Positions 6,627 through 44,189 of a stretch of 64,000 bases of DNA are shown piece by piece (within the stretch, counting starts at the first letter, position 1; each line of letters opens with the position of its first letter). This DNA comes from Cryobacterium suzukii (lineage in GTDB: Bacteria; Actinomycetota; Actinomycetes; Actinomycetales; Microbacteriaceae), in NCBI RefSeq assembly GCF_004403185.1, contig NZ_SOHJ01000002.1:186001-250000 (forward strand). Reading direction: 5' to 3'. The translations under genes were made by a program, and so were the position numbers. The notes under the pieces are model-generated. The model made no database searches and was not told the DNA's origin. It saw only the letters and a list, made by a program, of their open reading frames with translations.

Positions 6627-7367
6627 ATGACTGACACCACCCCACTGAATCCCACCGCGGTCGTCAAGAAGCGACGGGTGCTCCTTAAACTGTCCGGTGA
6701 GGCCTTCGGCGGCGGCGCCGTCGGGGTGAACCCTGATGTGGTCAGCTCGCTGGCCAGAGAGATCGCCGAGGGTGCCAAGCAGGTCGAAGTGGCCATCGTC
6801 GTCGGCGGCGGAAACTTCTTCCGCGGCGCCGAGCTCTCCCAGCGCGGCATGGACCGCGGACGCGCCGACTATATGGGAATGCTCGGTACCGTCATGAACG
6901 CTCTGGCCCTGCAGGACTTTCTCGAACAGGCCGGGGCGGAAACCCGCGTCCAGTCAGCCATCTCGATGACCCAGGTCGCGGAGCAGTACATTCCGCGGCG
7001 CGCGGAACGCCACTTGGAGAAGGGACGTGTCGTTATTTTCGGTGCCGGCGCCGGACTGCCCTACTTCTCGACCGATACCGTCGCCGCGCAGCGCGCCCTC
7101 GAAATCGATGCCGACGTTGTGCTCGTGGCCAAGAACGGCGTGGACGGCGTCTATTCCGACGACCCCCGTACGAATCCCGACGCCCAGAAGATCCACCACA
7201 TCACCTACCTGGAAGCCCTCCAGCGCGGCCTCAAAGTGGTCGACTCGACCGCGTTCAGCCTGTGCATGGACAACCACATGCCCATGCAGGTCTTCGGCAT
7301 GGCACCGGAAGGCAACGTCACCGCGGCCATCCTGGGCGCCGATCTGGGCACTCGCGTCTCCAACTAG
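6627..7367 (+). CDS. pyrH: UMP kinase
   Basis: 246 residues of the amino acid kinase fold. [14 protein letters not shown] is the phosphate-binding N-terminus; [12 protein letters not shown] binds [23 protein letters not shown] and [20 protein letters not shown] are the typical hexameric UMP kinase segments; [16 protein letters not shown] is the nucleotide-binding region. It makes UDP from UMP and ATP in the cytosol. A GGAAGG precedes the ATG. frr starts 30 bp downstream, giving a pyrH-frr-cdsA transcript separate from tsf. Confidence 0.97.
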
Positions 7368-9024: not shown

Positions 9025-9753
9025 ATGAGCACCATATTTTCGCGAGTGGGCAAGAAGTCCCTCGGCTACAACGTCACCCAGGTCGATGCGTTTCTGGCTG
9101 CGGCCCGGCGCGCATACGACCAGCCTGACCCCCACGACGACGAACTCGATGCTGATACCGGTGCTGTGGGATCCGTTGACGAGATCGCCGCCGGTGCCGA
9201 GACCGACACCACGCTGCCGCCGACCATGGGCGACGGGTCGGGCGCCGCCGACGGCGCCGAGGCCATCCACGCGCTGGTCGCGGAAGGAGCCGAGGCGGAA
9301 GAAACCCGCACCGGTGCGAGCTTGACGGCCGAGGGGATCCGGCACACCGCCTTCGCAATGCACAAGGGCGGATACTCGCCCGACCAGGTCGATGCGGCAC
9401 TGGAACGGCTTGAAGACGCATTTGCCGCTCGAGAACGCGATCAGGCGACCAGAGACGGGGGAGAGCGGGCGTGGATGGTTGACGCCGAGGGCACCGCTGA
9501 GGTGATCGTCGCTCGGCTCAGCCGCCCCCCAGGCTACCGCTTCACGCGCACGAGCGTTCTGGCGGTCGGCTACAAACGAGTGGACGTTGACCGTCTCGCC
9601 AACAAATTGGTGAAGTATTTCCAGGACGGTCGTGAGCTCACGGTCGATGAGGTGCGAACGGCAGTATTTCGGCCTGAACGTGGAGGATACCGGGAAGCGC
9701 AGGTAGACCTCGTGTTGGACAGCGTCGTGGACGTCATGCTCGCGGTCCGCTGA
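9025..9753 (+). CDS. DivIVA-domain protein with four G-Y-x-VD repeats
   Basis: 242 residues, acidic. Four short units resemble the DivIVA N-terminal motif: LGYNVTQVDAFLAAARRAYD, GGYSPDQVDAALERLEDAFA, VGYKRVDVDRLANKLVKYFQ and GGYREAQVDLVLDSVVDVML. Each is a turn (G-Y) followed by an amphipathic helix. In DivIVA proteins such a motif binds curved membrane; here four copies surround an Ala/Asp/Glu-rich linker and the long coiled coil is missing. Start ATG at 9025 after AATAAAGGT. It follows cdsA by 47 bp. A membrane- or pole-associated role is inference. Confidence 0.7.
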   Translation: MSTIFSRVGKKSLGYNVTQVDAFLAAARRAYDQPDPHDDELDADTGAVGSVDEIAAGAETDTTLPPTMGDGSGAADGAEAIHALVAEGAEAEETRTGASLTAEGIRHTAFAMHKGGYSPDQVDAALERLEDAFAARERDQATRDGGERAWMVDAEGTAEVIVARLSRPPGYRFTRTSVLAVGYKRVDVDRLANKLVKYFQDGRELTVDEVRTAVFRPERGGYREAQVDLVLDSVVDVMLAVR

Positions 9754-9807: not shown

Positions 9808-10470
9808 ATGGGTAGGCATCTGCAAGTAATCGACACTGTCCCGGCCACGGCACGGCCGACTGTTCGTCGAACTCGATCCCGGGTGAAGCCAGCGCACTTT
9901 CTTTTCGGGTTCACCGCAGCCTGCGCGTTCGTGCTCGTCACCGTGGTCGACCCCTACTCGGGTGCTACGGCGTCACCATACTTTCAAATAGCTGGCAGTA
10001 CGACCGACGACGGGCCCGCCCAGGCCGTTCTCGTCGCCGGCAGCTACACGAATACCATCACTCGGGACGGCTATGCCGTCACCGAAAAGCCCAAACCGGT
10101 GCCCGTCGTGGTCGCGGTAGAAAAGAAGACCCAGAGCTTCACCGCTCCATCGGCTGCTGTACCCGATCCAGGCTCGGCCCAGGCATACGCCTACGACGCC
10201 GTTGCGGGTCGCGGGTGGGGTGAAGACCAGTACAACTGCTTGGTTTCGCTCTGGCAGAAAGAGTCACGCTGGAATGTGAGCGCCCAGAACGGTTCGAGTG
10301 GTGCCTATGGTATTCCGCAGGCGCTGCCCGGCTCGAAGATGGCTAGCGCTGGCGACGACTGGGCCACAAACGCCGGGACCCAAATTGAGTGGGGTCTTGG
10401 GTACATCACGGGCCGCTACGGCACTCCGTGTGGCGCCTGGGAGAAGTCCCAGGCTTCGGGCTGGTACTAG
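9808..10470 (+). CDS. Exported lytic-transglycosylase-like (SLT-fold) protein
   Basis: 220 residues. A basic N-terminus and hydrophobic segment (FLFGFTAACAFVLVTVVD, about residues 31-48) export it. The C-terminal ~80 residues match the short SLT/lysozyme-like domain of actinobacterial surface proteins: QYNCLVSLWQKESRWNVSAQ with the presumed catalytic Glu in QKESRW, then SGAYGIPQALPGSKM and WGLGYITGRYGTPCGAWE. The family cleaves or binds peptidoglycan glycan strands. Two Cys flank the domain and may form a disulfide. It is monocistronic, with its own promoter just upstream. Confidence 0.8.
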   Translation: MGRHLQVIDTVPATARPTVRRTRSRVKPAHFLFGFTAACAFVLVTVVDPYSGATASPYFQIAGSTTDDGPAQAVLVAGSYTNTITRDGYAVTEKPKPVPVVVAVEKKTQSFTAPSAAVPDPGSAQAYAYDAVAGRGWGEDQYNCLVSLWQKESRWNVSAQNGSSGAYGIPQALPGSKMASAGDDWATNAGTQIEWGLGYITGRYGTPCGAWEKSQASGWY

Positions 10471-11628: not shown

Positions 11629-12678
11629 TCAGAGTTCGTTCTGGCGGGGGATAACGACCTGTTTGACGATCATGATGACCGACGCGGCGACGGGGATGGC
11701 GATCAGCGCGCCGAGGATGCCGAGCAGGCTGCCCCCGGCCAGGGCCGCGATCACGACGACCGCGCCCGGAATCGACACGGCCCGGTTCATGATCTTCGGA
11801 CTGAGCAGGTACGCCTCTACCTGCATATAAATGAGGTAATAGATCGCTGCGGCCAGGGCTGTCTGCGGAGAGCTGCCGATTTCGGGGATCAGGCAGGTCA
11901 GCACGATGATGACCGAACCCGAGATGGTACCGATGAGCGGAATCAGCGAGAGCAGGAAGGCGATGAACGCGAGCAGCGCCGGAAACGGGGCTCCGATGAT
12001 CGAGAGAAAGATGAAGCTCAGCACGCCGTTCACCGAGGCCAGAGCGGCCTGTCCCACGATGTAGCGACCGACGGCTGTGATGATTTGCTCGCTGATATCG
12101 GTGAACCGCTCCCGCTTGGACGCGGGAACCAGCTGATAGGTGGCGCGCTTCATGCTGTTCAGTGAGGCCGTGAAGTAGAGCGTGAGAATGAGGATGATGA
12201 GGCCGCCGAAAAGGCCGTTGACAATGGCGAGGCCGGACTGAACGACCGTCGTGGTGATGTTGGTGAGGTTGCCGCCGAGAAAATCGGTGGTCGTCTTCGT
12301 GATTTCGTCGATGTCGAGACCGGGGAACTGTTTTTTCAGATCGTCCAGAAAGGTCGAGCTGTTCACCCCTCGCACCAGCTCCGGAACGAGCTTGGACAAC
12401 TTGGACACCTGGCCGACGATGATCGGCACGATCGCGAAAATCACCGCGGTGAGCACGCCGAGCACCGCTGCGACCACGGTCAGAATCGCCGCCCAGCGTG
12501 GGAACTTCTTCTTCTCCAGCCACGAGACGGCCGGGTCGAGGCCGAGCGCGATGAACAGCGCGGCCCCGACGTAGATGATGATCGTCTGCAGGGTGATCAC
12601 CGAGGTGATGATCAGTAGGCCAAGGCCAACGCCCAACGTTCCGACGAGTCCGAACCGGAAGGCATTTTGTATTCTCAC
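11629..12678 (-). CDS. AI-2E family (PerM/YdiK-like) membrane protein
   Basis: 349 residues with seven to eight membrane segments: two at the N-terminus (about 7-62), one at 63-88, then a ~80-residue extracytoplasmic domain, and a C-terminal bundle. Family marks are YVGAALFIALGLDPAVSWLE, IPLIGTISGSVI and SIPGAVVVIAALAGGSLLGI. Members transport small molecules or ions; the AI-2 export assignment of the founding protein does not predict substrate here. Start is GTG at 12678 after CTGGAGTCGACAC. It lies 23 bp downstream of the coiled-coil gene on the same strand and is convergent with the hydrolase. Confidence 0.88.
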   Translation of the reverse strand: MRIQNAFRFGLVGTLGVGLGLLIITSVITLQTIIIYVGAALFIALGLDPAVSWLEKKKFPRWAAILTVVAAVLGVLTAVIFAIVPIIVGQVSKLSKLVPELVRGVNSSTFLDDLKKQFPGLDIDEITKTTTDFLGGNLTNITTTVVQSGLAIVNGLFGGLIILILTLYFTASLNSMKRATYQLVPASKRERFTDISEQIITAVGRYIVGQAALASVNGVLSFIFLSIIGAPFPALLAFIAFLLSLIPLIGTISGSVIIVLTCLIPEIGSSPQTALAAAIYYLIYMQVEAYLLSPKIMNRAVSIPGAVVVIAALAGGSLLGILGALIAIPVAASVIMIVKQVVIPRQNEL

Positions 12679-12701: not shown

Positions 12702-14309
12702 TTACTCGGCTGCGACCCGTTCTGCTTGGGTCAAAACGCTACGCAGACTTTCAAAGTAACCGGCCACGGCGTCGCGCTCAATTCTAATCTGGGACAGCCG
12801 GTCTTCGGCGTCTGCCACGAGGGTGCGTGAGCGTGTTGTAGCGTCGGTCACGAGAGCGGTAGCAGCGGTGTGCGCGTCCCTGAGAATGCGTGCGGCGTTC
12901 TCTTCGGCGAGTTCCTTGTTCGCTTTGGCCTCTTCGCGGGCGCCGGCATCGAGTTGTTCGTTGAGGGTGCGCAGCTCGGCCGTGCGCTCGCTCGTCTCGG
13001 TGAGCTGCCTGGCGGCATCCGCTTGAAACTTCTGAGTCTGCGCCACGGCCTCCTGGTGCCGGGCGAGGTGCCCCTGCTCGGCTTCGTCGCGGCGGGCTTT
13101 CAGCTCGACATCAAAGTCGGCTCGCGCCTGGTCGATCTCCCTGGCCAGCCGGCTCGCCTCGTGCTCGCCCTTTTTGCGCGTGGCGGTGAGGTGGTTCTCC
13201 AGATCGATGCGGGCCTGCTCGGCCTCGGCCTCGGCGTCGATGCGGGCCTGCTGGTTCTCCCGATCCAGGTCGGCGGCGGCCTGCTCAACCTCGGCGGCGA
13301 GGGCAGCGCGGCCTTGCTCGATCTCGCGGGCCAGACCGGCGCGTTTGCGATCGAGCTCGCGAGCGAGATCGGTCTGGGCCTGCTCTTGTTCGACCTCGGT
13401 CACGGCGTGTGCCTGTTCGATTTCGCGGGCCAGGTCGATTCGCCCTTGCTCGACCTCGGCGGCGAGCAAGGTGCGGGCCTGGTCTGCCTCGTGGGCGCCG
13501 GCCAGCCGCCCCTGCTCGGATTCCCTGGACAGATCGACCCGGGCCTGCTCCGTTTCGGCGGCCAGATCGACGCGGGCCTGTTCCGTTTCGCGCTGCAGGT
13601 CAGCGCGCTGCTGGTCGAGTTCCAAGGCCACTTCCGCGCGGGTGAGTTCGGTTTCGTGGGTAAGCCCCGCCGCGATCTCACGAGCCTCGGTGGCTTCCCG
13701 CTGGGCCACTACACGCACTTCTGCCGCCTCACGATCGGCTTCAGAGCGGATGGCCGACACCTCACGCTTGACCGTTGCCCGCGCTTCGGCGGCCTCGGTG
13801 GCGACAGCGCCCCGAATCAGGGAGGCATCGCGAACCGCATCCTGGACAACCTGCGCCTGGTCGTCCTGGGCGCGGGCGCGCACGTCATCTGCTTCAACTC
13901 GCACGTCATCGAGTACCCGACGTGCCTTGACGGCGGCATCAGACAGGGTGCGTTCGGCCTGCTCGAGGGCATTGTGGCGAAGCAGTTGCACCTCATCGGT
14001 CGTCGCGGCGCGCAGCTTCTCCGCGTCGATATCGGCCTGGGCGATGACTCGGGTGGACTGCTCTTCGGCCACGCGAAGGGTATTCTCCAGTTTGGTCCCG
14101 AGGCCGGAGAAGGTGGGGCTGCCGACCTCTTCGATCTCAGCGTTGAGATCGTCAATACGCGTCACCAACCGTTTGACTTCACGACCGGCCTCGGCGTTTT
14201 GAGTGTTGGCCTGGATCAGTTCGCGACGCAGGGACTGGATGGCCTTGGCGACCTCGTCCTTGTCGTAGCCGCGAAATACCTGGGTGAAATCAGCCTCGTC
14301 GTCAGACAC
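12702..14309 (-). CDS. DivIVA-like cytoskeletal protein with hendecad coiled-coil repeats
   Basis: 535 residues. An N-terminal DivIVA-type motif (FTQVFRGYDKDEVAKAIQSL) is followed by an almost wholly helical, charged body. Between about residues 230 and 375 at least twelve consecutive units of exactly 11 residues occur, of the form EQARxDLAxEx (examples EQARVDLAAET, EQARVDLSRES, EQGRIDLAREI, EQARIDLENHL). An 11-residue period gives a right-handed or nearly straight coiled coil, as in Scy/FilP-type polar-growth scaffolds. The end (LSQIRIERDAVAGYFESLRSVL) is a separate helix. ATG at 14309 follows AAGGAG. Role in pole or septum organisation is inference from the N-terminal motif and architecture. 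Confidence 0.8.
   Translation of the reverse strand: MSDDEADFTQVFRGYDKDEVAKAIQSLRRELIQANTQNAEAGREVKRLVTRIDDLNAEIEEVGSPTFSGLGTKLENTLRVAEEQSTRVIAQADIDAEKLRAATTDEVQLLRHNALEQAERTLSDAAVKARRVLDDVRVEADDVRARAQDDQAQVVQDAVRDASLIRGAVATEAAEARATVKREVSAIRSEADREAAEVRVVAQREATEAREIAAGLTHETELTRAEVALELDQQRADLQRETEQARVDLAAETEQARVDLSRESEQGRLAGAHEADQARTLLAAEVEQGRIDLAREIEQAHAVTEVEQEQAQTDLARELDRKRAGLAREIEQGRAALAAEVEQAAADLDRENQQARIDAEAEAEQARIDLENHLTATRKKGEHEASRLAREIDQARADFDVELKARRDEAEQGHLARHQEAVAQTQKFQADAARQLTETSERTAELRTLNEQLDAGAREEAKANKELAEENAARILRDAHTAATALVTDATTRSRTLVADAEDRLSQIRIERDAVAGYFESLRSVLTQAERVAAE
13190..13640 (-). repeat. 33-bp tandem coding repeats (11-residue units)
   Basis: Within the coiled-coil gene, degenerate 33-bp units follow each other without gaps, each coding EQARxDLAxEx or a variant. 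The + strand shows recurrent GCGGGCCTGCTC-like and GATCTCGCGGGCCAG-like words spaced by 33 bp. Such repeats can expand or contract by recombination. Confidence 0.8.
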
Positions 14310-14554
14310 GTATTACTCCTTACAAATGGGGCCCCGGCCCTCGGTGGATCATGCATGACGGGGAACACCCCCAATTTTAGTGTGTTGGCGCCGCCGCGAG
14401 TACCCGCCCATTCGACGGTGGGCTCTCTGGCGCTATTAGGCACCTCTCAGGAGAAGGCAGTAACGTAGAACGTCTGTGTCGGAGCACCTTCAGGCACAGG
14501 AGTCAGCCAGAGTGACTGAAGAGTACCAACCAGCCACAAGCTGAAGGGTGATAC

Positions 14555-16384
14555 GTGCGTTTTGTTCTTGCCATTGTGGCCTTCGTGCTTGCTGCCGTGA
14601 TGATCGTTCTCGGCATCGCACAGCGAACGATCCTGCTCGAGCCCGCTTTTACTTCCCTGACATCTTCCGTCACCGGCGACGCGAAATACACCGTGATAGA
14701 TCCGAGCGCGCTGGCAGCGTCGACGGGCAGCCAGACCATCGACGTGCGCGGAGATGGCGCGATCTTCCTCGCGTACGGGCGTTCGGAAGACGTCGCGGCC
14801 TGGATCGCGGACGACGCGTACGCCACTGTCACCCTCAGCGAGAAAACGGGCGAGCTCACCGCCACAGTCACCGACGCCGAAACCGCCGATGATGCCGAGG
14901 GAACCGCGGGTGATGCCGCCACACCGGATGCCGACGCCGCGATTGTGAATCCGGCTGGCTCAGACCTGTGGCTCGAGGAATACACCGGCACGGACTCTGT
15001 GACTACCACGCTGACCTTGCCGGAGGGTATTTCTGTGCTCGTCGCGTCGGACGGGATCGAACCGGCACCGTCCAGCATCCGTTTGTCGTGGGCGTCCGAC
15101 AATTCCACCCCGTGGGCGGGCCCGCTGCTCGCTGGTGGTGCCGTGCTTCTGTTGGCCGGCCTGGTGTTGTACGTGCTGGCCCTGCTGCATCTGCGGCGCT
15201 CGCGCAGGCCGCGTCGCAATGTCCCACGCGGTCCTCGCATGCCGCGTTTGCCGCGCGCACCACGCCCGAAGGCTATTAAGGCCAGTCAGATCACGACTTC
15301 GCGGCGGGGGATCGCCCGCCGGGTGGCCATTCTTCCCATGATCGTGGTCTCCGGCCTGGCGCTGAGCGGCTGTTCGGCCGACCTGTGGCCCGATTTCAGC
15401 ACGGCCAGCACGGCTACCGCGACGCCAACACCGACGCCTCAGCCCACTGATTCCGTCGAAGCCGCCGCCGAGCTGCCGCCGCCCGCCGTCACGGTCTCCC
15501 AGCTGGAAACGATCATGAGCGAGATCTCGCTGCTCAGCGCGGACGCCGATGTGAACCTGAATGCAGAGACTATTGCAACGCGATTCACCGGCCCGGCACT
15601 GGAACAACGACTGGCCAACTACAAGATTCGTGCCGTCGATCCGGCAGTAGCCCCCCTGATTGCTCTGGCGGGTGCGCCCCTCACGTTTACACTGCCGCAG
15701 CAGACTAACTCCTGGCCTCGTGTCGTCATGACGGTGATTCAAGACGAAAACGAACCCAGCATCCCGACCATGGCGGTCATCCTCAAGCAGGAATCACCCC
15801 GCACAAACTATCAAGTGGAGTATCTGTTCGCACTGGAGCAGTCGGCGCACGTTCCGAAGGTGGCGCCGGCCGTCGTCGGCGCCCCCGCCATCGCTCCCGA
15901 CAACAAGTTGTTGTTGCTGCCGCCGAACGAATTGGCCGCAGCGTATGCCGACATCCTGCTGCAGGGCGAGGCGAGCCCCTCATTCGGACTGTTCGAGAGC
16001 GAGGGGGATAATTTTCGCGTACAGGTTGCTGACCTGAACGCGGCCAAGATCGCCGCTTTGCCGTCGACCGCTTCGATCGAATTCGCAGCGGCTGCGGGCA
16101 GCGACGAGGCCGTAGCCCTCGCGACCAACGACTCTGGCAGCATCGTGGCGGTCAGCATGACGGAGACTGAAACGGTCAAACCGGTCGATACCGGGGCCAC
16201 GGTGGGCCCGGCCGCCGATGCCCTCGCCACGAAGGCGCTATCCGGCATCACCACCACGGCTAAGGGCTTTCAAAACACCTACCGCGACCAACTGCTGTTC
16301 TACGTACCCACGGCCGGTTCTAGCGACAAAATCGTGCTTCTGGGCTTTGCCCAGGGCCTCATCACATCGGCGGAGCTCCCATGA
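14555..16384 (+). CDS. Unrecognised membrane protein with an internal lipobox-like segment
   Basis: 609 residues, no family recognised. Layout: TM1 (about 3-22), an extracytoplasmic domain of ~160 residues with an acidic Ala/Asp-rich stretch (105-130), TM2 (about 187-212), a very basic Pro/Arg-rich loop (RRSRRPRRNVPRGPRMPRLP), then a third hydrophobic segment (256-270) ending in LSGC at 270-273, followed by a Thr/Pro-rich linker and an exported ~310-residue C-terminal domain. The second half alone would look like a standard lipoprotein (RRVAILPMIVVSGLALSGCS), so the gene may be an old fusion. Start GTG at 14555 after GAAGGGTG. Its stop overlaps the ATG of the next gene (ATGA), so the two are translationally coupled. 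Confidence 0.8.
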   Translation: MRFVLAIVAFVLAAVMIVLGIAQRTILLEPAFTSLTSSVTGDAKYTVIDPSALAASTGSQTIDVRGDGAIFLAYGRSEDVAAWIADDAYATVTLSEKTGELTATVTDAETADDAEGTAGDAATPDADAAIVNPAGSDLWLEEYTGTDSVTTTLTLPEGISVLVASDGIEPAPSSIRLSWASDNSTPWAGPLLAGGAVLLLAGLVLYVLALLHLRRSRRPRRNVPRGPRMPRLPRAPRPKAIKASQITTSRRGIARRVAILPMIVVSGLALSGCSADLWPDFSTASTATATPTPTPQPTDSVEAAAELPPPAVTVSQLETIMSEISLLSADADVNLNAETIATRFTGPALEQRLANYKIRAVDPAVAPLIALAGAPLTFTLPQQTNSWPRVVMTVIQDENEPSIPTMAVILKQESPRTNYQVEYLFALEQSAHVPKVAPAVVGAPAIAPDNKLLLLPPNELAAAYADILLQGEASPSFGLFESEGDNFRVQVADLNAAKIAALPSTASIEFAAAAGSDEAVALATNDSGSIVAVSMTETETVKPVDTGATVGPAADALATKALSGITTTAKGFQNTYRDQLLFYVPTAGSSDKIVLLGFAQGLITSAELP

Positions 16385-17361
16385 CGAATATGCCCCCTCT
16401 CGGATCGAACCTGCGCGGAGCGGTCGATCTTTCTTCGCTCGTGAACCGTGCCCCGGCGGGAACGACCCCGGCGGCCACCACTGGCGCACCCGTGGCCGGC
16501 GAGGCTGCTGCACCCTCCGGCGCAGTCACCCTGCCGAGCCTTGTTCTCGACGGTACCGACGCCAACTTTGGTGAACTGCTCGAGCTGTCTTCCCGCGTTC
16601 CCGTAGTCGTCGGACTGTGGGCATCCTGGAGTGAACCCTCAACGCAGCTCATGATCGCATTGGAAAGGATCGTTCTGGGCTTCGCCGGCAAGTTCGTGCT
16701 GGCCCGCGTCGACATCGACACGAATCCGCAGCTCGCACAGGCATTCCAGGCCCAGTCCGTGCCGACGGTCGCCGCCGTCATCACCGGTCAGCCGGTGCAG
16801 CTTTTCAACGGTCCGCTCGGTGAGGAGCAGATCACCGAGGTGCTCGGTCGTGTTCTGGAGCTCGCAGCGCAGCAGGGTGTGACGGGCACGGCCCAGGCCA
16901 CAGACGCGGACGCCGACGCCGAACCGATCGCCGCGGCCCCGGAGCCACTGCCGCCGCACCACCTTGAGGCGTACACAGCGATCGAGGCCGGCGACTATGC
17001 CACCGCTCAGAGTGAGTACCGCACCGCGCTGGCGCAGAACCCGAACGACACGATGGCCGTTGCCGGTCTGGCCCAGGTCAGCCTGCTCGCCCGGCTGCAG
17101 GGCAAGACCATCGACCAGATTCGCAATGGCGCGGCATCCGCTCCCGACGATCTCGATGCACAATTACTGGTCGCCGACCTCGACTTATCCGGTGGTCACA
17201 TCGAGGACGCCTTCGATCGCCTGCTGGGACTTTTTACGGCACAGCCCGCCGCAGGCCGCAACACGATTCGCGAGCGCCTTCTCGAGCTGTTCGAGGTCGT
17301 CGGTCAGGATGATCCACGGGTTCCCCCCACCCGTTCGCGGCTCACTGCCCTCCTGTACTGA
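16381..17361 (+). CDS. Thioredoxin-fold/TPR protein, CnoX (YbbN)-like
   Basis: 326 residues. After a ~60-residue flexible Ala/Pro-rich start comes a thioredoxin fold: VPVVVGLWASWSEPSTQLMI, DIDTNPQLAQAFQAQSVPTV. The CxxC active site is replaced by S-E-P-S, so no dithiol chemistry is possible. The C-terminal third contains tetratricopeptide-like helices (HLEAYTAIEAGDYATAQSEY, then YRTALAQNPNDTMAVAGLA). This domain pair is that of CnoX/YbbN, a chaperone-holdase working with EF-Tu and DnaK or GroEL. The ATG overlaps the stop of the membrane protein upstream. A cytosolic location is expected, as no signal is present. Confidence 0.85.
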   Translation: MTNMPPLGSNLRGAVDLSSLVNRAPAGTTPAATTGAPVAGEAAAPSGAVTLPSLVLDGTDANFGELLELSSRVPVVVGLWASWSEPSTQLMIALERIVLGFAGKFVLARVDIDTNPQLAQAFQAQSVPTVAAVITGQPVQLFNGPLGEEQITEVLGRVLELAAQQGVTGTAQATDADADAEPIAAAPEPLPPHHLEAYTAIEAGDYATAQSEYRTALAQNPNDTMAVAGLAQVSLLARLQGKTIDQIRNGAASAPDDLDAQLLVADLDLSGGHIEDAFDRLLGLFTAQPAAGRNTIRERLLELFEVVGQDDPRVPPTRSRLTALLY

Positions 17362-17404
17362 TTTACCCTGTACTGATTTCCCCTGTGCGCTCGAGCGGGA
17401 TGCG

Positions 17405-19729
17405 CTAGCGGCGCAGACGCAACCATAAGCCGGCCAGCGGCGGCAGGGTCAGGGTAGCGGATGCCGGACGACCGGCCCACGGCTCGTTGTAGGCCTCCAC
17501 GGCGCCCTGGTTTCCCACGCCCGACCCACCGAAGTCGCCGGCATCCGTGTTGAGAATCTCCTCCCACTGCCCGGCGAACGGCAAGCCGACGCGGTAGTCG
17601 GTGTGCGGCTGCCCGGCGAAGTTGAAGAAGCAAGCGACCGGAACGCCGTGGTTGTCCCAGCGCAGAAACGACACGACATTCTGGGCCGCTGCGCCGCCGT
17701 CGAGGAGTTCGAAGCCGCCCGGGTCGTTATCGCGGCTCCACAGGCTCGCATTGTCGCGGTAGACCCGGTTGAGCTGGGCAACCAGGTTGAACAGGCCACG
17801 GTGCGCCGGCTGGTCGAGCATCCACCAGTCCAGTCCGCGCTCCTCGCTCCACTCCGAGCGCTGACCGAACTCGCTTCCCATGAACAAAAGTTGCTTTCCC
17901 GGGTGCGCCCACATGAAGGAGAGGTAGGCCCGCACGTTGGCGAGCTGCTGCCAGGAATCACCGGGCATCTTCGATACCAGGGCACCCTTGCCGTGCACGA
18001 CCTCGTCGTGGCTGATTGGCAGCAGAAAGTTCTCACTGAAGGCATAAATGAACGAGAACGTGATGTCGTTGTGGTGGTACGAACGGTACATCGGGTCGAC
18101 CTGCATATACTCCAGCGAGTCGTGCATCCAGCCCATGTTCCACTTGAAGCCGAAGCCGAGCCCGCCCCCGCTGGTCGGCGCCGTCACCCCGCCCCAGTTC
18201 GTGGATTCTTCGGCGATCATGATGGTGCCCGGATTGCGCTTGTACGCCGTTGCGGTGATCTCCTGCAGCAGGCTGATCGCCTCGAGGTTCTCGTTCCCGC
18301 CGTACTGGTTCGGCTCCCACTGGCCATCTTCGCGCGAATAGTCCAGGTAGAGCATCGAGGCGACCGCGTCGACACGCAGCGCGTCGATGTGGAATTCTTC
18401 GAGCCAGTACAGGGCGTTCGCGACCAGGAAGTTGCGCACCTGCATCTGACCGAAGTCGAAGATGTAGGTGCCCCAGTCCAGCTGCTCGCCGCGACGCGGG
18501 TCGGCGTGCTCGTAGAGCGCCTGGCCGTCGAAGCGAGCGAGGGCGAAGTCGTCTTTCGGAAAGTGGCCGGGAACCCAGTCCATGATCACGCCGATGCCGG
18601 CCTGGTGCAGCCGGTCAATGAGATAACGCAGGTCGTCGGGGGAGCCAAACCGGCTGGTCGGAGCGTAGTAGCCGCTCACCTGGTAACCCCAGGAACCGCC
18701 AAACGGGTGCTCCGCGAGCGGCATGAATTCCACGTGAGTGAAGTTGAGTTCGTGCAGGTACCCGACGAGCTCATCGGCCAGGTCTCGGTACCCGAGGCCA
18801 GGGCGCCAGGAACCGACGTGCATCTCGTAGACACTCATAGCCTGGTTGTGGGGATCGTTAGACTTGCGATTAGCGAGCCAGGCGGCATCCGACCACTCGT
18901 AGTGCGATTCGGTGACGATCGACGCGGTCTGCGGCGGCACCTCGGCGAGCCGGGCCATCGGGTCGGCTTTCTCAACCCAGTCGCCGGACTGCGCGAGCAG
19001 CTGGAACTTGTAGTTGGCGCCGAGTTCGAGGCCCGGAATGAACAGCTCCCAGACGCCGGTGCTGCCCATGTTGCGCATCGAATGGGTGACGCCGTTCCAG
19101 CCGTTGAAGTCGCCGATCACACGGGCGGCGCTGGCGTGCGGCGCCCACACCGCGAATGAGGTGCCGGTGGATGACTCCGTGACACCCTGGTGCCGGCGGT
19201 GGTGGGCCCCGAGCACGTCCCAGAGCCGTTCGTGGCGACCCTCACCGATCAGGTGCAGGTCCAGCTCGCCGAGCGTCGGGATGAACCGGTACGGGTCACC
19301 ACAGATCCAGGCCGGCGCGCTCTCATAGCGGGCCTCGATCGTGTAGTCGCTGAGTCCGACGATGCTCTCGCCCTGCCAGATACCGTGCGCGAGGTGGGTC
19401 AGCGCGACTCGCGATCCGTTGGCGAGAATGGCGAACACCTCGGTGGCGAGTGGACGTAGTGCCCGGATGATGACGACCGGGTCTGACCCACCGTCGTGGT
19501 TCGCGAGGTGCTGGCCAAGAACTTCGTGCGGGTTGTAATAGCGGCCGGCGGCGACGGCCTCGAGCACGTGGTCGGGCACCAGTTCGATCGGGGCCGCGTG
19601 CTTCTGGACTTTCCTGGTCCCGGATTTCGGGGACTGTGCCTTCTTGCCGTCGATGTTCTTTCCCTGACCCTTCGTGTTTGCTGTTTCTTGTTTCTTGCGT
19701 TTTTTGTCTTTGTCTTTGCCGCCGCTCAT
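17405..19729 (-). CDS. glgB: 1,4-alpha-glucan branching enzyme
   Basis: 774 residues, GH13 branching enzyme. The CBM48 module ([30 protein letters not shown]) precedes the barrel with [32 protein letters not shown], nucleophile Asp in [16 protein letters not shown], acid Glu in [12 protein letters not shown], and [11 protein letters not shown]. It transfers glucan segments to alpha-1,6 positions. The first ~40 residues are a Lys/Gln/Gly-rich low-complexity extension absent from the typical family. Its ATG overlaps the glgE stop (ATGA), so glgE-glgB is a coupled pair: GlgE elongates and GlgB branches. Confidence 0.97.
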
Positions 19730-43931: not shown

Positions 43932-44189
43932 CTAAGGTGGGCCCGGACGCGTACCGCGAGGGCGACGCGCAGAACGGATGCGGCGGGGGCGACGCGCAGA
44001 CCGGGGTCGGCGGGGCCGGCGCCCGAAACGTCGGCGGGCCCATAGGGGCACCCGTGGGCGCAGCCAGTCCGGAAAATGCCACGGGCCGCTCACCGGCAAT
44101 CCCTGGGCGATGCGTCGACGCCGCATCAGGAAGCGACGCATCAACACGAGATACAGCGCCGCCAACACGAGCAGGATGCCGATGCTCAT
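43932..44189 (-). CDS. Possible small membrane protein
   Basis: 85 residues. N-terminal hydrophobic helix (IGILLVLAALYLVLM, residues 3-17), a basic stop-transfer (RRFLMRRRRIAQGLP), an aromatic patch (GPWHFPDWLRPRVPLWARRR) and an Arg/Pro-rich tail. The first 55 residues look protein-like; the tail may be low-complexity coding. A convergent double hairpin follows its stop, which favours a real gene. No clear ribosome binding site. Confidence 0.45.
   Translation of the reverse strand: MSIGILLVLAALYLVLMRRFLMRRRRIAQGLPVSGPWHFPDWLRPRVPLWARRRFGRRPRRPRSARRPRRIRSARRPRGTRPGPP

Follow-up and report, generated by a model that had tools for sequence, protein, structure and literature searches.

The window analysed here is a stretch of 64,000 nucleotides from Cryobacterium suzukii (contig NZ_SOHJ01000002.1), and its gene of interest occupies positions 12702-14309 of the minus strand. 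The features of this gene and its two relevant neighbours are as follows.

12702..14309, minus strand: FilP-type coiled-coil protein gene, 535 aa, GTG start at 14309, with N and C modules homologous to FilP
14316..14321, minus strand: AAGGAG, Shine-Dalgarno-like, ending 6 bases before the GTG of this gene
14124..14309, minus strand: residues 1-62, DivIVA-like domain made of a short helix, a loop with RGYD and a coiled-coil helix, from profile matches and predicted helices
13680..14105, minus strand: N-terminal rod module, residues 69-210, constant in length and containing GLGTKLE..LRVAEEQ, from absence of indels, invariant columns and predicted helix
13203..13664, minus strand: variable hendecad array with 14 clear units, residues 216-369, from unit fit, phase model and indel positions
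13149..13178, minus strand: phase shift, residues about 378-387, where the two main length classes differ by 7 residues
12705..13148, minus strand: C-terminal rod module, residues 388-535, with a conserved SRTLVADAEDRLSQIRIERDAVAGYFESLR stretch at its end
11629..12678, minus strand: AI-2E family (PF01594) membrane protein gene directly downstream of the FilP gene, its probable operon partner
9025..9753, plus strand: PolyDIV protein (DivIVA domain repeat protein), TIGR03543, 7.1e-59

The DivIVA-like motif RGYDKDEV lies at residues 13-20 of the window protein, ahead of the coiled coil, with an A in place of the final D of the consensus RGYDxxEVD; that D is present in 90% or more of the 23 diverse family N-termini that make up our profile A1. 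The AlphaFold2 model, based on 35 aligned homologues, contains helices at residues 5-11 and 17-62, followed by an unbroken helix at residues 69-534, which would be ~69 nm long by arithmetic (0.1485 nm per residue). The model has a mean pLDDT of 78 and a pTM of 0.22; the pLDDT is under 50 for residues 1-13 and, within the array, confidence is lowest at residues 301-330 (52-54). It describes a single chain, and the dimer considered below is our own deduction. From anchor to anchor, as defined below, the rod measures 420 residues. In comparisons of 22 relatives with the window protein, the N-terminal rod module was free of indels in all 22, and nearly all indels fell within residues 222-387. Searching the host genome with the window protein gave one match only.

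Residues 216-369 form 14 gapless 11-mers, each agreeing with LAREIEQARAD, the family consensus, at 5-9 of 11 positions; in the two units after the array (residues 370-391) the agreement drops to 2 and 1 positions. A phase-tracking model built on the family recognises a single in-phase segment in the protein, residues 211-387. Over this segment, the mean residue identity at lags 11-55 is 0.397, against 0.113 for shuffled sequences (sd 0.011, maximum 0.163), and none of 20,000 shuffles reaches the observed value of this lag-11 series; at lags 4, 7, 8, 10, 12, 14, and 18, the identity is 0.04-0.07. These results bear out the original prediction of at least twelve gapless units, of a coiled-coil periodicity and of a DivIVA-like N-terminus leading into a hendecad coiled coil. 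The same prediction called the 11-residue repeats perfect, which holds for their gapless spacing but not for their sequence: compared as DNA, the units share a mean identity of 0.54 (maximum 0.79), and Tandem Repeats Finder, run on the window, reported no array inside the gene. Recent slippage in the window gene is ruled out, since unit DNA identity has this low mean and the best 66-nt copy is 73% identical.

In a count of 3,689 units drawn from the two main length classes, 93% have a hydrophobic residue at position 1 (L 71%), and position 5 is T, V, L or I. Position 8 frequently holds a small residue (A 39%, T 19%), and position 10 is A in 50%, with an acidic position 4 (E 72%) and a basic position 9 (R 76%). 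The family units match the a-d-h pattern of hendecads (PMC9858780) via positions 5, 8, and the next 1. This composition is that of an extended hendecad coiled coil with an Ala-rich core, as in FilP and Scy, the coiled coil itself being predicted.

In 186 of the 194 loci with enough downstream sequence (some genomes being counted twice, by a named and an unnamed locus), the AI-2E family gene comes directly after the FilP-type gene and shares its strand, with a median gap of 28.5 bp. Its product is a possible candidate for a membrane partner of the rod; the passages of the FilP literature available to us contain no mention of such a partner. On the other side of the AI-2E gene, the 9025-9753 gene lies near ORF 6627-7367, which we take to be pyrH (UMP kinase). 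The former had been noted as a second gene with DivIVA motifs, and it does encode a PolyDIV protein (TIGR03543), an already published type that was named in PMC9858780 and described there as mostly having UMP kinase in its vicinity. Its first DivIVA-like motif scores under the cut-off, and the linker that follows varies widely in length among relatives. Adjoining it, the plus-strand ORF 9808-10470 carries an aggregation-promoting-factor C-terminal-like domain (NF052397, 3.8e-35). Upstream of the FilP-type gene, the plus-strand ORF 14555-16384 (609 aa) has an N-terminal membrane part and, by eye, an apparent second signal and lipobox after about residue 260, and its residues 310-604 match weakly the SCO2278 lipoprotein family (32.6 of 210 bits); it is possibly two genes fused. 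Two short tandem repeats were seen elsewhere in the window, one of 15 bp at 17352-17386 (2.3 copies, CCTGTACTGATTTAC), spanning the end of a thioredoxin-TPR gene and preceding the convergent ORF 17405-19729, presumably glgB, and one of 27 bp at 43956-44022 (2.5 copies, 82% matches).

The family position of the protein was determined from both of its ends. Compared with known structures, profile A1 matches DivIVA (2wuj, 2.9e-5) and several GpsB, and Wag31 (6lfa) at 0.029 only; TIGR03544 is matched by all 23 N-termini of the profile. At the level of the class, profile A1 finds matches in 101 of 148 genomes. Among these is a group of ten genomes of 7-10 Mb (f21), eight of which have an ORF of 322-337 aa adjoining a long ORF; in genome G381 the short ORF reads 380 aa up to its upstream stop, and in L300 and L303 no long neighbour was found at the threshold applied. 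Both ORFs were tested in one f21 genome, G361, where NF041483 identifies the long one as Scy with 2124.5 bits against a cut-off of 1040. The short ORF next to it, 311 aa from its likely start, matches the N module of the window protein at 1.1e-14 and the C module at 3.7e-9, and the two full proteins match in BLASTP at 7e-9. The Scy match and the short/long gene pair make it probable that the f21 genomes are Streptomyces. Because the Scy-adjoining short ORF matches both modules and the whole protein in BLASTP, the window protein is well supported by sequence comparison as a Microbacteriaceae homologue of FilP, within the FilP/Scy group, an identity that is ordinary in itself. It has homology to FilP at both ends beyond the RGYD motif; NF041483 (Scy) gives no match to it at E 0.1 or better. 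A plasmid collection searched for a named FilP returned one weak match, from Nonomuraea, which was left unused.

The protein had been classified as DivIVA-type, and this has to be revised. At full length, it scores 18.7 bits with PF05103 (cut-off 28) and 19.0 with TIGR03544 (cut-off 22), and in a genome scan for DivIVA domains it reaches 22.7 with TIGR03544, just above the cut-off. The strongest DivIVA-domain match of the genome (54.8 bits) is a separate protein of 207 aa encoded elsewhere, whose neighbours we take from their sequences to be sepF, yggT, and lspA; it is this gene, and not the window gene, that sits near sepF and yggT. The suggested likeness to polar-growth scaffolds of Streptomyces, on the other hand, is upheld by the kinship of both end modules with the FilP/Scy group.

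Rod length was measured from column 75, which served as the anchor in the N module, to residue 495, the anchor in the C module. In a family-wide draw, 165 of 199 genomes have a match to the window protein, and named loci of Agromyces and Leifsonia match it as well. Outside the genus, 112 of the 161 genomes with a match were fetched, these being the better-matching ones; the named loci are the closest 80 of 164 matches and are thus biased to the window's own length. Both anchors were present in 252 loci, and removal of 59 duplicate rods left 193 distinct rods. Five loci without any two-anchor ORF were left out (L138, L139, L141, L148, and L262); in L148 (G008), the gene is broken into several frames.

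The anchor distances range from 77 to 985 residues. Relative to the 420 residues of the window protein, 110 of the 193 rods differ by 11n (including 81 of equal length) and 77 by 11n+4 (equivalent to 11n-7), which places 187 in two classes, 0 and 4, recognised after looking at the data; the six others are L245, L255, L256, L260, L261, and L263. Among the 62 distinct rod lengths, 57 belong to the two classes. When each length is counted once and periods from 3 to 25 are compared, only 11 stands out (Rayleigh 10.8, next 1.2). When every rod is counted, periods 7 (52.4) and 8 (49.7) exceed 11 (33.9), because the 81 rods at the window's length lift all periods. In the loci from L118 upward, mostly an even draw of the family in which just 5 rods have the window's length, 104 of 110 rods (61 lengths) fall in the two classes. 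As a control, the PolyDIV linkers between the first two heads, for which the first anchor is short and weak so that single values may be off, show 16 lengths in 76 distinct proteins and 9 of the 11 remainders, with 19, 20, 21, and 22 residues as the commonest lengths and a Rayleigh value of 1.1 at period 11. Rod length in Microbacteriaceae is thus quantised in 11-residue steps. This quantisation is the new element, DivIVA-like N-termini and hendecads in FilP/Scy being already published; no report of it was found in the part of the literature on the family that was searched, most subscription papers being outside our reach.

Applied to the 193 rods, the phase model finds one long in-phase segment in 161, two in 2, and none in 30, the longest in-phase stretches being 782 (L201), 749 (L189), and 736 (L193) residues. 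In the window protein the phase jumps at residue 387, while the class-4 rod L128 stays in phase to 418. Walshaw et al. are said to have described, in 2010, a 51-residue repeat in Scy. No such repeat is apparent in the rods that differ from the window's length, where the identity at lag 51 is 0.07-0.23 against 0.16-0.43 at lag 11, and lag 11 exceeds lag 51 in each printed row of these rods.

The alignments locate the difference between the two classes. For the 12 class-0 relatives among the 22 aligned to the window protein, the gaps are solely of 11, 22, 33, 66 or 99 residues. In six of the 10 class-4 relatives, a gap of 7 residues lies at 378-380, and one of these six also has two 2-residue gaps that compensate each other. 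Of the remaining four, one has a single gap of 18 residues at 367, another has gained 4 residues at 385, a third has gaps of 6 and 1 at 372-385, and L140 has mixed small gaps. On a FastTree tree of 193 rows built from the flanks only, in which 50 of 190 inner branches are weak and some long branches were flagged, rod length needs at least 80 changes and the class (0, 4, or other) just 6. Among 63 sister pairs, 18 are unequal in length, 16 of them by a multiple of 11, and the two exceptions differ by 40 (the step between the two classes) and 24. From the same tree, 23 pairs were picked, some with common members; 22 of them have protein gaps, which in 21 are solely multiples of 11, the remaining pair (L232/L244) having gaps of 11, 39, and 16. 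In the more distant picked pairs, the DNA alignments contain other gaps too, resembling alignment noise. Rod length thus evolves in steps that can be counted, nearly all of its changes being gains or losses of whole 11-residue blocks.

Several close pairs show these steps at the DNA level. The rods of L189 and L201, with flanks 96-100% identical and anchored rods 92% identical and 33 residues apart, are separated by a 99-bp indel; indels of 33 bp distinguish L142/L180, L202/L213, and L202/L215, indels of 66 bp L191/L204 and L146/L149, and one of 132 bp, with two compensating 2-bp gaps, L229/L235. In L142, the 33-bp insert and the unit preceding it share 94% identity, and for the four other inserts tested the best match is 60-81% identical. 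Recent unit copies are present in some relatives: in 9 of the 193 rods, 66-nt copies at least 90% identical occur at lags of 33n bp and at no other codon lags, with up to 100% identity at a 33-bp lag in L193. Such copies support tandem duplication of units, with off-grid changes removed by selection. We also observe that 8% of the aligned rod residues differ between L189 and L201, and that the array seems to evolve faster than the flanks.

Within the genus, the pace is slow. All 57 genomes searched, the window's own included, match the window protein, whose closest relatives among the named loci are from Cryobacterium species, and 50 of the 57 have its length in gapless matches; six differ by -11, -11, -33, -66, -66, and -99 residues, and in the remaining one the gene is split into several frames. 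The rod length of the window protein is thus not a fast-varying one, being identical in 50 of the 57, and the number of units is a slowly changing species trait in the genus, with no sign of a strain switch as far as tested. More length change is seen in some other genera. The expectation that the repeat number varies between organisms is confirmed by differences at the level of species and genera, which is the variation that collections with one genome per species display.

The same spacing extends beyond the family. In other families, 42 of 42 fetched two-anchor FilP-like rods share one remainder, with six lengths (175, 208, 219, 252, 263, and 274 residues), and the three main remainders all fit 175 + 11n + 7h with h = 0, 1 or 2. 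Rods from the families sampled beyond Microbacteriaceae have h = 0, whereas nearly all of those from Microbacteriaceae have h = 1 or h = 2, the latter being the value of the Cryobacterium/Agromyces/Leifsonia group. In L270, from another family, the hendecads have a different consensus. Scy was left out of the length count because the C anchor lands at arbitrary places in it (three Scy rows gave remainders 9, 10, and 0), and rows without a usable C anchor were likewise uncounted (L290, L297, L298, the Scy of L299, L308 twice, L309, L311, and L312).

We consider it highly probable that the product of the gene is a FilP-like scaffold of the poles or septa, and that 33-bp units are gained and lost as its rod evolves, with the coiled coil keeping them in phase. 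The protein would most likely form a parallel coiled-coil dimer, in which a DivIVA-like head is followed by length-invariant N and C rod modules around the hendecad array. As judged from its sequence relatives, it probably serves growing poles or septa as a cytoplasmic scaffold and would interact with DivIVA as Streptomyces FilP does. Tandem duplication or deletion of whole 33-bp units would lengthen or shorten the array. Eleven residues correspond to three helical turns to within about 11 degrees, which would leave the hydrophobic stripe in place, and most indels of other sizes would twist it away; almost only whole units would survive because they preserve the stripe.

The quantisation might also be a mere mutational by-product of recombination between 33-bp repeats, the length of the rod being neutral, a serious alternative that we nevertheless find rather doubtful. 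The recent copies in 9 of 193 rods and the wide length differences among many genera would be expected from it, and the array is the least conserved part, albeit slightly, with a mean identity of 0.64 in pairs of the window's length compared with 0.66 for the C module, 0.69 for the N rod, and 0.78 for the head. Neutral drift is harder to reconcile with the constant length in 50 of 57 genus genomes and with the single length across the tree loci titled Agromyces or Leifsonia, even though these were fetched as closest matches. Nor does it account for the probable Streptomyces FilP, which has no such array and yet a length on the 11-residue grid, or for the rarity of small in-frame indels, which need no repeats. 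A quite different function, in which an amphipathic 11-mer helix formed by the array would bind membrane lipids, as in apolipoproteins or LEA proteins, and help under cold or freezing stress, seems very improbable. The host is a Cryobacterium, and residues 210-373 do match Pfam Apolipoprotein (A1/A4/E) weakly at E 0.0052, but with 16.9 bits against a cut-off of 90. The match is outweighed by the FilP homology of both modules that flank the array and by the presence of matches in 165 of the 199 family-wide genomes and also in Agromyces and Leifsonia, which are mainly soil and plant dwellers. The residues at positions 1, 5, and 8 (L, T/V/L/I, and small A/T) are also those of the hendecad-dimer a-d-h pattern (PMC9858780).

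It is hardly credible that the window protein is a DivIVA paralogue doing the job of DivIVA itself at the poles, a reading to which the RGYD motif, the matches of profile A1 to DivIVA and GpsB structures, and the TIGR03544 matches of all 23 N-termini would lend themselves. The genome has a separate 207-aa protein with a 54.8-bit domain, its gene lying beside what we take to be sepF, yggT, and lspA, and the window protein, which at full length stays below both cut-offs (Pfam and NCBIfam), has N and C modules of the FilP type.

For the scaffold with a unit-wise evolving rod there is a further and more speculative thought, which we hold tentatively and regard as unlikely: FilP rods might be integer rulers, a lineage-fixed number of units setting a distance at the pole or septum (mesh spacing or the reach from DivIVA), long held by selection and shifted by 1.6-nm hendecads through unit duplication or loss. 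In Microbacteriaceae, with three off-grid rods of smaller size set aside, these shifts would span anchor-to-anchor distances of roughly 40 to 146 nm. The part deserving attention is the integer evolution of rod length. FilP and Scy help to organise polar growth, and about 60 natural rod lengths with fixed ends allow the role of length to be probed; rods altered by exact units are also simple to design. The length series also supports, from the side of evolution, a structural unit of 11 residues in the FilP-type coiled coil, and the in-phase hendecad stretches of up to 782 residues offer material for structural work.

Taken together, these observations can be set against the known members of the superfamily. 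Martinez-Goikoetxea and Lupas (2023, PMC9858780) joined DivIVA, GpsB, FilP, and Scy by the RGYDxxEVD motif, reported hendecads with Ala-rich cores in FilP and Scy, and proposed an expansion by hendecads in a group whose lengths go from <200 to >1000 residues. According to passages of PMC11571769, FilP and Scy interact with DivIVA and influence hyphal growth; excerpts of PMC6599971 report 37-nm rods formed by FilP, and parts of PMC4255298 describe FilP orthologues as common across simple actinobacteria. PolyDIV (TIGR03543), of the same superfamily as the window protein, has several heads, no long rod, and unquantised linker lengths. DivIVA and Wag31 share the head motif with the window protein, but DivIVA is short and encoded by a separate gene elsewhere in the genome. 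The FilP of Streptomyces (FilP/Scy group, PMC9858780, PMC6599971) has in common with the window protein the DivIVA-like head, the PS(Y/F)xGLGxxxExxLRxAEE stretch, a long coiled coil, and the C-terminal module. The probable Streptomyces FilP, however, is 311 aa long with a rod of 175 residues and, in the one sequence inspected by eye (L294), no comparable hendecad array, compared with a window rod of 420 residues with its array of 14 units. Scy of Streptomyces (NF041483, PMC9858780) likewise has a DivIVA-like motif and is rich in hendecads; it is a very long relative, and its gene adjoins filP. Unlike the Scy case, Microbacteriaceae have lengthened the FilP homologue itself, once to an in-phase stretch of 782 residues.
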